Under the pieces are notes generated by a model. The model was given only the letters and a program-made list of their open reading frames with translations. It was not told the origin of the DNA and made no database searches. DNA of 64,000 nucleotides from Candidatus Xianfuyuplasma coldseepsis (GTDB taxonomy: Bacteria > Bacillota_I > Bacilli_A > Izemoplasmatales > Izemoplasmataceae), in NCBI RefSeq assembly GCF_014023125.1, contig NZ_CP048914.1:1516698-1580697 (forward strand), read 5' to 3'. Positions 4,008 through 41,496 of this stretch are shown here, piece after piece. Position 1 is the stretch's first letter, and each line of letters starts with the position of its first letter. The position numbers were made by a program, and so were the translations under genes.

Positions 4008-4691
4008 ATGTGCGGACGGTTCGTTGTTAGTTATACCTATGATGAATTGGTATCTTTCTTGCAAGGGGCATTTGATATCCAGGAAGTCGATTTGATTGAT
4101 TGGGAACCTCGCTATAATGTTGCTCCGGGACAAGAGGTACTCAGTGTTATTCATGATGGCAAACAATATCGTGCGGGGACATTGCGCTGGGGCTTTGTAC
4201 CATCTTGGAGCAAGGATTCTAATAGTGGTTATAAAATGATCAACGCACGAGGAGAAACGATAGATAAAAAGCCTTCCTTTAAAGAATCGTTTCAACAGAA
4301 GCGATGTGTTTTGCTTGCCGATGCTTTTTATGAGTGGAAACGAGTCGGATCGAGTAAACAACCGATGTGTATTCAAATGAATGATCAACGGATGTTTTTG
4401 CTAGCCGGTTTGTGGAGCCGAACGATACAAGAAGACGGTTCGGCACTATTTACAACGACCATCGTCACGACATCGAGCAACTCTTTAATGGAAGATGTTC
4501 ATGATCGGATGCCTGCGATATTGAGTGTAGAAGATGCGATGACATGGCTGGATAGTAGTACACCAATAGGTGATGTTAAAGAATTAATCCATCCGTATGA
4601 TAGTGATCAAATGATGATGTATCCTGTTAGTACAATGGTAAATAGTGTGAAGAATGATTCGATAGAATGTATGATTCCATTACAAAAATAA
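4008..4691 (+). CDS. SRAP/HMCES family protein (YedK-like)
   Basis: 227 aa, the SOS response-associated peptidase-like fold that crosslinks to abasic sites in single-stranded DNA and shields them. All hallmark residues are present: Cys2 exposed after removal of Met1 (MCGRF), Asn79 (INARGET), Glu109 (FYEWKR) and His165 (VHDRMPAIL). Full length for the family. It is a single gene ending at a bidirectional terminator and is convergent with a flavodoxin-like gene. A weak TACAAT lies upstream, but I see no LexA-type site. Confidence 0.93.
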   Translation: MCGRFVVSYTYDELVSFLQGAFDIQEVDLIDWEPRYNVAPGQEVLSVIHDGKQYRAGTLRWGFVPSWSKDSNSGYKMINARGETIDKKPSFKESFQQKRCVLLADAFYEWKRVGSSKQPMCIQMNDQRMFLLAGLWSRTIQEDGSALFTTTIVTTSSNSLMEDVHDRMPAILSVEDAMTWLDSSTPIGDVKELIHPYDSDQMMMYPVSTMVNSVKNDSIECMIPLQK

Positions 4692-4714
4692 AACCAGATT
4701 CTTGGAATCTGGTT
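4692..4714. terminator. Bidirectional terminator
   Basis: Perfect stem AACCAGATT/AATCTGGTT with loop CTTGG, flanked by A and T runs, between the convergent SRAP and flavodoxin-like genes. Confidence 0.8.
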
Positions 4715-5132
4715 ATTGTTTAACACCTTTTACGTATATTTGTTTGTCAACGATGGTATTGCACCCATCAATTAATCCTTTGAAACTCTCGAAATAGTGT
4801 TTGTATCCACCGTCGCAAGAACCGATAATGGTTACGTTTTTATCATGGAAGACATGTTCTTTAAGAAATGTGCGCATGAATGCATTGACACGACCGGCCC
4901 ATACGGGGGATATTAAGATGATATGATCGTATTTTTTAAAATCGATGTCGAGCGGTTGATAGGCAACTTCTTTGTTGGATACTGTTAAAAAACCGTATAA
5001 TAATAACTGGAATGGGTACCATTTTGGTGGTGTTTTTGCAGGTTTTATCTCAAATACATCACCCTCAAATGCTTTGGCAATGGTGAGGCTTCGTTTATGT
5101 TTGCTGAGTGAGTGGACAATAATGGCGTTCAT
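4713..5132 (-). CDS. Flavodoxin-fold protein
   Basis: 139 aa with the flavodoxin-like alternation of strands and helices: an N-terminal strand MNAIIVHSLS, a central strand YDHIILISPVWAGRVN (the typical flavodoxin second loop) and VTIIGSCDGG. Members bind FMN and act as NAD(P)H-dependent reductases or protoporphyrinogen-type oxidases. The phosphate-binding loop (SLSKHKRS) departs from the classical T/S-x-T-G-x-T motif, so the exact cofactor and substrate are uncertain. Its ATG follows an AGGAGGG site and it is divergent from rlmN. Confidence 0.75.
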   Translation of the reverse strand: MNAIIVHSLSKHKRSLTIAKAFEGDVFEIKPAKTPPKWYPFQLLLYGFLTVSNKEVAYQPLDIDFKKYDHIILISPVWAGRVNAFMRTFLKEHVFHDKNVTIIGSCDGGYKHYFESFKGLIDGCNTIVDKQIYVKGVKQ

Positions 5133-5229
5133 AGTTTCCCTCCTGTTCTATTTTGATTATAGCAAATATGATGCTTTCCGTATACATTTTTTAGATTTTT
5201 GGTATAATACTTTTATTGGACGTGATACA

Positions 5230-6261
5230 ATGAATAACTTTTATGATTATACCCTTGATGGATTAACCGAAGAATTGTTGAAGCATGGTTTTAAAGCGTT
5301 TAATGCGAAGCAGTTGTTCGATTGGGTATACAAGAAACGAGTACAAGACAATGATAAGATGACAAACCTGAGTAAGACATTACGTCAGTTTTTAAACAAG
5401 CATATGTGGTTTTCGGAGGTAGTCGTCAACCAGCATCAAGTTAGTCATGATGGGACGGAAAAATTCTTGTTTGAACTCGACGATGGAAACATAATTGAAA
5501 CAGTGCTAATGCGTCATAATTATGGCAATAGTGTCTGTGTCACAACGCAACTTGGGTGCAATATTGGCTGTACGTTTTGTGCATCGGGTTTGCAGAAGAA
5601 AAAACGCGATTTAACGGCAGGTGAAATTGTTGCTCAAGTAGTGAAGGTGCAAGATGTTTCGCAAGAGCGTGTTAGTCATGTTGTCGTTATGGGTATTGGT
5701 GAACCGTTTGATAATTATGAGAATACCATGGCTTTCATCGATATTATTAATAGCCCCCATGGGCTTGAAATTGGGGCAAGACATATCACGGTATCAACGA
5801 GTGGTATTGTCCCGAAAATTAGACAGTTTAGTAATGAACCCAAACAAGTAAATTTGGCGATTAGTTTGCATGCATCCAACGATAATATGCGCACTAGTAT
5901 CATGAAAATCAATAAAGTGTATCCGCTTGTAGATGTGATTGAAGCAGCGAAAGAATATGTCGAAAAAACCAATCGTCGAATAACATTTGAATACATATTA
6001 TTACAAGGTGTCAATGATCAACTGTGGCATGCGGATGAGTTGGTTCAGTTGCTTCGGGGGATGAACTGTTATGTGAATTTAATTCGGTATAATCCCGTGG
6101 ATGAATTCTCCTATCAAGGAACGGAAGAAGCGGTTGCAAGAGCGTTTCATAAACGACTGATGGATCAGGGCATAACGGCAACGTTACGACATGAAAAGGG
6201 TGGCGACATCGATGCTGCATGTGGCCAATTACGCAGTAAAAAATTAACGAGAATCGAGTAG
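5230..6261 (+). CDS. rlmN: Dual-specificity rRNA/tRNA adenine C2-methyltransferase RlmN
   Basis: 343-aa radical SAM enzyme that methylates C2 of A2503 in 23S rRNA and A37 in some tRNAs. The iron-sulfur triad is C110-x3-C114-x2-C117 (CNIGCTFC) and the catalytic C-terminal cysteine is about C332 in DIDAACGQL. The reading frame is open further upstream, but that stretch is antisense to the flavodoxin-like gene; ATG 5230 gives a normal RlmN N-terminus and sits behind an extended -10 promoter (TGGTATAAT, about 5200-5208) with a very short leader. The stop lies inside the terminator. Confidence 0.95.
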   Translation: MNNFYDYTLDGLTEELLKHGFKAFNAKQLFDWVYKKRVQDNDKMTNLSKTLRQFLNKHMWFSEVVVNQHQVSHDGTEKFLFELDDGNIIETVLMRHNYGNSVCVTTQLGCNIGCTFCASGLQKKKRDLTAGEIVAQVVKVQDVSQERVSHVVVMGIGEPFDNYENTMAFIDIINSPHGLEIGARHITVSTSGIVPKIRQFSNEPKQVNLAISLHASNDNMRTSIMKINKVYPLVDVIEAAKEYVEKTNRRITFEYILLQGVNDQLWHADELVQLLRGMNCYVNLIRYNPVDEFSYQGTEEAVARAFHKRLMDQGITATLRHEKGGDIDAACGQLRSKKLTRIE

Positions 6262-37758: not shown

Positions 37759-38667
37759 CTATAAGTCTATTACATCTTCAAAGTTCATATTGAACTTATT
37801 TTCTATGGATTTTTTGTAATCATCCAATTTTTTACTTTTCCCCTCAATGTATAACTGTAAAAGTGCTTTTTTCGCAGATTCAATTGCCCCAATCTTATCT
37901 TCAGTATCCCATTTTGCATACGCATTGATTAGAAAGAGAGAAGACAAGGCAAACGAGATTTCATTATTGAGACAAAACTCAATTCCTTGATTGGTGATTT
38001 CTATTGTTCTTTTGAATTTTTGTTGTCGTCCAAGAATCTGCCCTAAAACAAGATAAATACTGGGTAATAGTGTGGTATCCTGACCTAGAGGTAGATTATA
38101 TTGTGATTCTGTTAACATTTTATACATTAACTCAGCAGGTTCATAATTATCAATTTTTGAACTGATTAAAATCATTTGAAATAGAATGTTTAGTTCAATG
38201 ATATTAAAAGATTCATTATTCTGACATTCTGGATAATTTATCATTTTTGAATACAATTCAAGAACATGTACATCGGAAACCATATTAAGATTGTGCTGGA
38301 TAAATAACATACAAAAATCAAAGAATAGTTTATTGTACTTTGACACGAAAATTGCTTCTCTTATATCTTTAGCCAACTTGTATGCATCATCGAACTTTCT
38401 TTGTTTTATTAGATTAAAGATGTTGTTTATTTGTTCAAGTTGACTATCAGATTTTTTAAGGAAAAGTAGATGTAAATCACTAATACTGTAGTTCAATCGA
38501 TCAGCTATTTGAACTAATATATCATTTGGTATTGAGGTGTCTCCTCTTAAATACCTTTTGTATTGACTTAGAGAAATGATTCCATCACAGAGGTCTTCTC
38601 TAGACATGTTTCGGTCTAATCTTAAGCCATCAATAAATAGACCAAACTCACGTGCATTTGTAGACAT
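37759..38667 (-). CDS. HTH plus helical-repeat regulator A, RRNPP (PlcR/Rgg-like)
   Basis: 302 aa. HTH at about 8-65 (FIDGLRLDRNMSREDLCDGIISLSQYKRYLRGD), then about 230 residues of paired helices consistent with TPR repeats. Length and layout match PlcR/Rgg peptide-binding activators. A paralogue (regulator B) lies 0.7 kb away and shares RNMSREDL-x2-GIISL. AGGAGGTG precedes the ATG. Its start is only 85 nt from, and divergent to, a 43-codon secreted peptide gene, the arrangement expected for a regulator and its pheromone. The pairing is inference from architecture; the fold call is from pattern recognition. Confidence 0.75.
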   Translation of the reverse strand: MSTNAREFGLFIDGLRLDRNMSREDLCDGIISLSQYKRYLRGDTSIPNDILVQIADRLNYSISDLHLLFLKKSDSQLEQINNIFNLIKQRKFDDAYKLAKDIREAIFVSKYNKLFFDFCMLFIQHNLNMVSDVHVLELYSKMINYPECQNNESFNIIELNILFQMILISSKIDNYEPAELMYKMLTESQYNLPLGQDTTLLPSIYLVLGQILGRQQKFKRTIEITNQGIEFCLNNEISFALSSLFLINAYAKWDTEDKIGAIESAKKALLQLYIEGKSKKLDDYKKSIENKFNMNFEDVIDL

Positions 38668-38689
38668 TTGAAAAACACCTCCTAATGGG

Positions 38690-38717
38690 TCATATATGAA
38701 CTTTATTTATCAAATAA
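38690..38717. promoter_or_regulatory. Two dyads between regulator A and the peptide gene
   Basis: TCATATATGA (38690-38699, perfect palindrome) and TTATTT-ATC-AAATAA (38703-38717). The second covers the -35 region of the peptide promoter (weak TTTATT, 17-nt spacer, TAGAAT at 38725-38730). Weak -35 boxes overlapped by a dyad are typical where an activator binds. Confidence 0.5.
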
Positions 38718-38752
38718 CATCTTATAGAATATAAGCAAGGAGTTGATATAAT

Positions 38753-38884
38753 ATGAAAAAAGCAATCGCAATCTTATTAGTTTTAGCAGCTATTATAACA
38801 TCTGGTGGGGGAGTCAATGTATTTTCTGATGCTGGAGATGAATATGTAGATGATGTAACTGAATTGCTTCCAATCAGATACTAA
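38753..38884 (+). CDS. Small secreted peptide, candidate pheromone precursor
   Basis: 43 codons, ATG to TAA, with AAGGAG 10 nt upstream. Residues 1-20 are a Sec-type signal (MKKAIAILLVLAAIITSGGG); residues 25-36 are acidic; the C-terminus is ELLPIRY. The size, signal, acidic spacer and C-terminal LP-x-x-aromatic end resemble PapR, whose last residues are the mature PlcR pheromone (ADLPFEF type). It is divergent from an RRNPP-like regulator. Not homologous by any search I could run; the pheromone role is inference. The coding call itself rests on RBS, signal and codon pattern. Confidence 0.65.
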   Translation: MKKAIAILLVLAAIITSGGGVNVFSDAGDEYVDDVTELLPIRY

Positions 38885-39036
38885 AAATATTATACTATTT
38901 CATTCTACAACAGTTTAGTAAATTTTCATAGACGCATTACTAACAAAAAAATGAAAAACTATTGATTAAGAACGTATAAACTACAGTTTTTTGTTTTTTA
39001 TTATGCAAAATTTTAAACAAATAGGAGGTTTTTAAT

Positions 39037-39315
39037 ATGACAGCTTTGCAAGAACTTACAATAGAATATGATGGAATGTTAGGTACCATTAAACAATATT
39101 CATGTGATCCATACGTAATGAGCTACTTAAATAAACTTAAAAATGCCATGGTAAATGAAGATTATTCAATGATACAAATTATGATCCAAAAACTTAATGA
39201 GTGGTATGAAGAAAATATTAATGCCATAGAAGAAAATCGTTGGGTAATAAATTTAGATTCCCATCATAAAACACAGAGACTTATTAAAGAGTTTATGTTT
39301 AAGTTTTCGAATTAA
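39037..39315 (+). CDS. Orphan 92-aa protein in the peptide-regulator locus
   Basis: Not recognised. Predicted mostly helical and soluble, with no signal peptide; two cysteine-poor helices (LQELTIEYDGMLGTIKQYS and MIQIMIQKLNEWYEENINAIEENRW). A very strong site ATAGGAGG precedes the ATG. It follows the peptide gene by 152 nt on the same strand and ends at a terminator shared with regulator B. It could be a target or immunity-type protein of the locus. The long AT-rich 5' region has a possible hairpin but no certain promoter. Confidence 0.65.
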   Translation: MTALQELTIEYDGMLGTIKQYSCDPYVMSYLNKLKNAMVNEDYSMIQIMIQKLNEWYEENINAIEENRWVINLDSHHKTQRLIKEFMFKFSN

Positions 39316-39342
39316 AAAAGAGACGATGTCTCTTTTTTATTT
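39314..39342. terminator. Bidirectional terminator
   Basis: AAAAAAGAGAC-GAT-GTCTCTTTTTT between the 92-aa gene and regulator B. Confidence 0.9.
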
Positions 39343-40236
39343 GAATTCAACTAAGTCTTGCTCAAGCAATTCAAACGTCTTGTAAATTGTTTTTTTGTAG
39401 CCTTCTTTTATACTATAGTTATCAGAAATGTTTAGCAGAGCAAACATTTTTTGGAGAGATGTTCTATATCTGTAATCATCATATAGCTTCTTTTCAGCAA
39501 CGGCTTTGTAATAAAATAAATTTATCATAGGCAAAAAATTATCAGAGACTATGAAAGTATTTTGTGCTGATTGTAAAAGATTTAGTGCTTTTTCGTGCTC
39601 ATCGACGATTCCTAGACATTTTGCAGTTATGATTCGAAAAGGAATTGTTGTATTATCGGTATTAGATCCATTATTTATTTCATTCTGCACAATTTTGTAG
39701 AAAAAATTGGCTATTCTATAATCTTTTTGTAAAGTAAGGTAGTTTACTAAATAAATCAAAGCCGATTTTTCAACAAATGTAAGTACATCTTTTTTAAGAA
39801 CATTTGGATAATCAATCAAAAGTATAAGTTGTGTCGAAGCCTCATTGTAGGTTAATCTATCTTGTTTTACGGATAGAAGTAAGTTAACAAATTCATAGAA
39901 TTTTTTATTTGTCTCATTGTCAAGATCTGTTTTTTCAATAGAACTGAATAATTCATATGCTATTTTCAGATCATCTACATATACTTTTCTGTAAATCTCT
40001 ATTAATTTTTTATATAGTTCATCAGACGCTGAGTAAAAATTACCAAATAGTTGGGTTTCTGATAGTTCTAATCTCTCTAAGAACTGAATTAGAACATTAC
40101 TATTGATAGTTGTTTCTCCTTTTATGAATCGGTAGTAGTGTCTAAGGGAGATGATTCCTTCAACAAGGTCTTCACGTGACATGTTGCGAGATAGTCGTAG
40201 TTGATCGATGAATTGAGCGAATTCATAGTTGTTCAT
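39337..40236 (-). CDS. HTH plus helical-repeat regulator B, paralogue of regulator A
   Basis: 299 aa with the same layout as regulator A: HTH at about 5-60 (FIDQLRLSRNMSREDLVEGIISLRHYYRFIKGE) and a helical C-terminal 230 residues. The paralogy is clear in the HTH, weaker in the ligand region, so the two may recognise different or partly overlapping peptides. It starts only 19 nt behind trpS with AGAAGGAAGG as RBS and no terminator between, so it is probably transcribed with trpS and thus under the trp T-box. No peptide gene lies beside it. Confidence 0.72.
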   Translation of the reverse strand: MNNYEFAQFIDQLRLSRNMSREDLVEGIISLRHYYRFIKGETTINSNVLIQFLERLELSETQLFGNFYSASDELYKKLIEIYRKVYVDDLKIAYELFSSIEKTDLDNETNKKFYEFVNLLLSVKQDRLTYNEASTQLILLIDYPNVLKKDVLTFVEKSALIYLVNYLTLQKDYRIANFFYKIVQNEINNGSNTDNTTIPFRIITAKCLGIVDEHEKALNLLQSAQNTFIVSDNFLPMINLFYYKAVAEKKLYDDYRYRTSLQKMFALLNISDNYSIKEGYKKTIYKTFELLEQDLVEFK

Positions 40237-41274: not shown

Positions 41275-41496
41275 AATAAAAAAGTTCGTCCTTGGTAAAG
41301 GACGAACTTGTAAGTCCGTGGTGCCACCTTTGTTCTAGAGTACTCTAGCACTTGGTACCATTAACGCTGGTTAACGGGTAGGATTAGTACCACTCATGGG
41401 TCCATTCCGATACGTTGTATTGTTTGGCTTTCACCATTCCAAACTCGCTAGGTATACAAGGGGTGTATCGTACTCTGTCCAGTCGTTGTGTTGATT
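41275..41496 (-). promoter_or_regulatory. Tryptophan T-box leader of trpS
   Basis: On the minus strand a T-box riboswitch: stem I region with AGCGAG and GGAATGGTGAAAGCC loop, specifier bulge GAA-TGG-ACC (Trp codon TGG at 41402-41404), T-box sequence GGTGGCACCACGG (41316-41328) and terminator AAGTTCGTCCTT-TACC-AAGGACGAACTT (41282-41309) with T run. A promoter TTGCAT-N17-TATCAT (-10 at 41503-41508) lies in the end of pepF. Uncharged tRNA-Trp would favour antitermination. Confidence 0.92.

Follow-up and report, generated by a model that had tools for sequence, protein, structure and literature searches.

Peptide quorum sensing of the RRNPP kind is known from Bacillota. The question raised by the present locus is whether two related regulators that enclose a gene for a tiny secreted peptide form such a system in a lineage close to the Mollicutes. 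The DNA analyzed (referred to here as the window, a stretch of 64,000 nucleotides) belongs to the genome of Xianfuyuplasma coldseepsis zrk13 (1,958,905 bp, one contig). The first-pass annotation of the window had proposed a Mollicutes-related lineage, correctly, as the organism is zrk13, a deep-sea bacterium that lacks a cell wall and was the first free-living Izemoplasma brought into culture (PMC8397711). The four ORFs that it described are present at the positions first claimed, in the order Reg1 (minus strand), 43-codon ORF (plus), P4 (plus), and Reg2 (minus). Together with the control elements discussed below, the features of the locus are as follows.

37759..38667, minus strand: Reg1, a 302-aa HTH and TPR-type regulator; proposed pheromone receptor and activator
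38687..38704, plus strand: operator GGGTCATATATGAACTTT, with a palindromic core at 38688-38701, overlapping the expected -35 position
38725..38730, plus strand: -10-like hexamer TAGAAT, 38 nt from the operator start
38737..38742, plus strand: ribosome-binding site AAGGAG of the peptide ORF, read from the sequence and conserved in relatives
38753..38884, plus strand: candidate pheromone precursor, 43 aa, with a Sec-type signal
39037..39315, plus strand: P4, 92 aa, four-helix; a stand-alone homolog of the SpbK N-terminal domain
39337..40236, minus strand: Reg2, a 299-aa paralog of Reg1, convergent to P4; proposed second receptor or modulator

The locus block has a GC content of 28%, versus 30-41% elsewhere in the window, which prompted us to consider horizontal transfer. 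This explanation was rejected because seven genomes show complete synteny with PepF, trpS, HPr, GNAT, and MgtE. The gene order PepF-trpS-Reg2-P4-peptide-Reg1-HPr-GNAT-MgtE is common to these genomes, with Reg2 absent in one, and the locus is therefore ancestral rather than mobile. The relatives compared include Izimaplasma HR2 and ZiA1. A T-box leader (Rfam RF00230) lies 5' of trpS at window positions 41295-41495 on the minus strand.

The 43-codon ORF had been credited with a strong ribosome-binding site and a Sec signal, and both are present: the AAGGAG site lies 10 nt upstream and the N terminus is of the Sec type. Cleavage of the precursor is likely after A27 (between SDA and GDE), which would leave an acidic tail of 16 residues, GDEYVDDVTELLPIRY. 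In all nine close genomes that are readable here (9/9, zrk13 included), the interval between Reg1 and P4 contains, on the P4 strand, an ORF of 42-48 aa that begins with MKK and follows a similar AGGAG site. Because each of these genomes has one in the same place, the small ORF is more than a chance reading frame. Signal and spacing of the precursor are kept among the close genomes, while the mature part is hypervariable, acidic, and proline-rich. With tail boundaries placed by eye after A-x-A, all single-copy tails of the wider family are net negative (18/18) and 16/18 contain proline. We rejected ELLPIRY as a conserved active heptapeptide, as what the tails have in common is charge and proline and not a heptapeptide; its earlier designation as the active form is unsupported, being just one guess within a hypervariable tail. 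Searches of Pfam, NCBIfam, and PHROGs returned nothing convincing for the peptide. A short gene for a secreted-type propeptide that adjoins a receptor gene, one of the defining features of RRNPP(A) systems, is thus found both in the window and in relatives.

The two regulators share 25% identity along almost the whole of their length and are thus paralogs, as the first-pass annotation had held. Reg1 carries an N-terminal HTH_3 match. In its AlphaFold2 model, built from a 10-row alignment (pLDDT 88.8), the HTH leads into a series of paired helices. The best matches of this model among solved structures (Foldseek) were PlcR with PapR, Rgg2, ComR, and PrgX, at TM scores of 0.4-0.6 and with a large whole-chain rmsd. 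By sequence, a profile of the Reg family reaches Rgg2 (E=6e-9) and ComR (E=1e-6), and searches of Pfam, NCBIfam, and PHROGs with the regulators gave matches at the HTH level only. The receptor feature of RRNPP(A) systems, TPR-type helical repeats that usually follow an N-terminal HTH, is thus predicted for Reg1, in agreement with the fold expected from the first reading of the locus.

Reg1 homologs occur in 50/101 related genomes, and orthologs in close relatives are 41-55% identical. In a phylogenetic tree, the Reg1 sequences form one supported clade; those of Reg2, which is found at the same place in seven other genomes, mostly form another, with one Reg2 outside. Mean identity of Reg1 is 69% in the HTH and 44% in the TPR part, a contrast that would suit a receptor whose DNA site stays constant while its ligand varies. 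Reg2 evolves faster than Reg1, with corresponding values of 51% and 27%.

Homologs of P4 were found in 48/90 genomes of the order and in 19/392 of the phylum sample, a few of them weak. Contigs were scanned with a set of close P4 sequences, as the 14-row P4 alignment proved too diverse for this purpose. A divergent Reg homolog lies within 1.5 kb of 39 of the 45 P4 copies that have enough upstream sequence. Under a strict rule, a secreted-type ORF is present between Reg and P4 on the P4 strand at 31/39 of these loci, compared with 0/39 on the opposite strand and 4/3900 dinucleotide shuffles. Judged by eye, the number rises to 37/39; these counts include near-duplicate genomes, so that not all loci are independent. 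The small ORF is therefore kept beside homologous regulators in the close genomes and across the wider set alike, as a genuine peptide gene had been expected to be.

In one sister lineage, this ORF takes the form of a tandem array, e.g., with nine copies of DFDDRDEPEFINI or seven copies of LDFDDCGEPEFVH. The array peptides are near-identical and acidic, with the core D-F-D-D-x-x-x-P-E-Y/F-V. The divergence among copies within 14 arrays is 0.43 at synonymous and 0.009 at nonsynonymous sites, a ratio (pN/pS) of 0.02. The coding-selection signal sought by the first-pass annotation is thus present in these homologous multicopy precursors; the tail of the window's own precursor is too divergent for such a measurement. 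Many assemblies end just 5' of P4, which is what repeats would cause. Other arrangements of P4 also occur. One locus (L110 in G047, 4029-5251, minus strand) contains three tandem P4 genes and no Reg; two have C-terminal extensions, one of which ends in DNNPFDTDDAFDFPIKF and resembles the acidic pheromone core. A second P4 copy in zrk13 itself (L041:7087-7374, minus strand; G000:C1:1030101-1030373) has no regulator or recognizable peptide adjoining it.

The first-pass annotation had both regulators flanking the peptide gene; they do flank it, but only Reg1 shares with it the promoter region that bears the operator. This operator is conserved in 9/9 orthologous Reg1-peptide intergenic regions. 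It is a perfect palindrome in some, GGTCATATATGACC, and in one relative it has matching changes in both arms, GCTCACATATGAGC. The zrk13 genome contains five sites with ≤2 mismatches. Across the order, sites with ≤1 mismatch occur in 18/18 genomes of the five Reg1-clade genera versus 2/72 of the others. At 25/31 distinct sites, the distance from the operator start to the start of a good -10-like hexamer is exactly 38 nt, an offset at which the mean -10 score is 6.9 of 9, compared with 1.9-4.9 at all other offsets. Because of this fixed spacing, the operator centre would lie near -41. Class II activators bind near -41, and it is this geometry that suggests activation as the sign of regulation.

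Position and codistribution point to Reg1 as the putative owner of the operator. Against this assignment, several operator-bearing genomes (e.g., G013, G023, G035, and G039), whose assemblies are incomplete, have no detectable Reg1 ortholog, which leaves room for another owner. Reg2 could also bind the same site.

The predicted regulon is genome-wide and extends beyond the window. Its recurring members are the peptide-P4 operon and, in nine genomes, a gene pair for a PEMT-like membrane protein and a GH3-family enzyme, which in zrk13 is followed in the operon by a GGDEF/HD-GYP protein. Four genomes have MreB-like operons among the targets, which also include a polysaccharide operon and genes for a MASE3-GGDEF protein and for secreted proteins. 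A c-di-GMP-I riboswitch follows the promoter in six operator-target leaders; zrk13 has four such riboswitches in total, of which two are in operator-target leaders. At one locus (L166, G000:C1:437000-449000), three MreB-like genes and an EAL gene lie as an operon behind an operator and a c-di-GMP-I riboswitch, in an organism that reportedly has no cell wall.

The abundance of c-di-GMP genes and riboswitches in this regulon would also suit a Reg1 that senses an internal cue, c-di-GMP or a metabolite, with the small ORF encoding a membrane or secreted peptide that has some other job; binding of the peptide by Reg1 is itself a proposal. We consider this improbable. The top fold matches of Reg1 are peptide-pheromone receptors, and its TPR part diverges faster than its HTH. 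The peptide gene is adjacent and divergent at nearly all loci, and the arrays retain many identical peptide copies.

The 92-aa gene was initially regarded as an orphan, a description that does not hold: P4 is related to SpbK and is a conserved third component of the locus. It matches the PADLOC spbK model (E=1.2e-20), and a P4 profile aligns with the first 90 residues of the SpbK chain in PDB entry 9phb (E=4.3e-15). Pfam, NCBIfam, and PHROGs gave nothing convincing for P4. AlphaFold2 predicts four helices (pLDDT 90.5), and Foldseek found no significant match to this model; because the published SpbK filament lacks density for the N-terminal domain (PMC12847820), there are few coordinates to match. 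The four-helix N-terminal domain of SpbK docks on the phage portal YonE (PMC12847820). P4 has this domain and lacks the C-terminal TIR NADase domain of SpbK, as it ends at residue 92 and TIR is absent from both P4 copies of the zrk13 genome. P4 is the most conserved member of the locus (mean identity, 73%); in the closest relatives it is 86-87% identical, matching the conservation of trpS and far above that of the regulators. Its partner is therefore probably invariant, and not the variable peptide. As a guess, P4 might act as an intracellular adaptor or brake within the circuit. Elsewhere in the class, in another family, a P4-TIR fusion and thus a true SpbK relative (L150:3512-4636, minus strand, G319) lies beside an HsdS-like restriction specificity gene, which ties the P4 domain to phage defense.

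The homology to the SpbK N-terminal domain, together with this fusion and its HsdS-like neighbor, raises the alternative that the locus is a defense module in which P4 senses a phage protein, as SpbK does the portal YonE, and in which peptide and regulators serve an antiphage response and not density sensing as such. This reading is improbable for the locus itself, which contains no TIR or other killing domain and shows vertical core synteny in seven genomes. Phage sensors usually diversify, yet P4 is conserved like trpS in the closest relatives, and the operator regulon consists of cell surface, MreB-like, and c-di-GMP genes. Least credible of all is a bacteriocin locus with an antimicrobial peptide, P4 as immunity protein, and Reg1 and Reg2 as regulators: the succession of a small secreted peptide and a small helical protein fits, but P4 is constant while the tail is hypervariable, the opposite of a paired bacteriocin and immunity protein, the short tails are acidic and rich in proline, P4 is homologous to the SpbK N-terminal domain, and the flanking genes PepF, trpS, HPr, GNAT, and MgtE include no dedicated exporter.

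In our judgment, the locus probably represents a new RRNPP subfamily that serves peptide quorum sensing in Izemoplasma, with Reg1 as a pheromone-dependent activator. The first-pass proposal of an undescribed RRNPP system in a Mollicutes-related lineage is thus supported by the predicted RRNPP fold, the conserved peptide ORF, and coding selection in the arrays. From the gene content, conservation, fold, operator, spacing, and regulon computed here, we infer export, import, peptide binding, and activation by Reg1, including its direction. The 43-aa precursor would be exported by Sec, and signal peptidase would release from it an acidic peptide that contains proline and is about 16-20 residues long. 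Perhaps after more trimming, this peptide would accumulate outside the cell and be reimported through an Opp transporter. Inside the cell, the peptide would bind the TPR domain of Reg1, which would then act at the palindrome and activate the peptide-P4 operon, giving positive feedback. Reg1 would also activate a scattered regulon comprising the PEMT-GH3-GGDEF/HD-GYP operon, the riboswitch-bearing MreB-like and polysaccharide operons, and secreted proteins. Reg2 probably serves as a second receptor and adjusts the response. The third component, P4, is conserved and is probably an adaptor that works inside the cell with a partner that does not vary.

A complete OppABCDF-like operon is present in the zrk13 genome (L171:4040-13799; G000:C1:1274039-1283798) and would provide the reimport permease characteristic of RRNPP(A) systems. 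The substrate-binding protein of this operon is unusually long (1069 aa), and a second long SBP_bac_5 protein (1124 aa) is encoded at L172:6832-10206.

More tentatively, the loci may form a three-component class, with a receptor, a secreted peptide, and a stand-alone SpbK-type domain that is almost obligatory; in this clade, the output would couple density to c-di-GMP control of shape and surface in wall-less cells. We would not yet bet on this extension. If it is true, the portal-detecting module of SpbK is a standard part of peptide communication, e.g., as a coreceptor or brake. The RRNPP surveys consulted make no mention of Mollicutes or Izemoplasma, and a literature search that covered few subscription papers found no publication on RRNPP quorum sensing in Mollicutes or on quorum sensing in Izimaplasma.

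Among known systems, PlcR-PapR of the Bacillus cereus group, which includes the best solved-structure match, is similar in its HTH and TPR regulator of about 285-300 aa, its Sec-exported precursor encoded beside the regulator (PapR, about 48 aa), and its global regulon with a palindromic box. The PlcR box, TATGnAnnnnTnCATA, that marks target promoters of the PlcR subfamily differs from the Izemoplasma operator, and the peptide gene is divergent here, whereas PlcR-PapR is codirectional. The Izemoplasma locus also adds an SpbK-N-like gene, a second regulator, and c-di-GMP-linked targets. Rgg-SHP and ComR-ComS of streptococci are linked to the present family through the profile matches to Rgg2 and ComR. 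Rgg2/Rgg3 are a pair of paralogous receptors with a divergent regulator-peptide arrangement, and the locus resembles them in both respects. The SHP and ComS precursors are not known to have a classical Sec signal; in contrast, the Izemoplasma precursor has a classical signal and an acidic tail.

Propeptides with several mature-peptide copies, up to eight, have been reported for RRNPPA systems, among them Rap-Phr, NprR, AimR, and PlcR (PMC11343458, PMC9765709), and the arrays therefore represent known pheromone-precursor behavior and no new kind. They differ in belonging to a Mollicutes-related order, in reaching nine copies, in their core (DFDDxxxPEYV), and in always occurring with P4, while the window's own precursor is single copy. 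Finally, P4 is homologous over its full length to the N-terminal four-helix domain of SpbK, the antiphage TIR protein of Bacillus subtilis ICEBs1, but it is a chromosomal core gene without a TIR domain, in what we propose to be a pheromone operon. The link found in dozens of genomes between an antiphage domain and a signaling operon prompts one to ask whether defense or signaling was the earlier use. That a cultured lineage without a cell wall has such a locus in its ancestral core suggests that peptide signaling of this kind persists along the evolutionary path to Mollicutes, and the regulon names c-di-GMP turnover, MreB-like filaments, and polysaccharide as candidate outputs. Compared with these systems, we rate the principle as known and the lineage, the third component, and the regulon as new.
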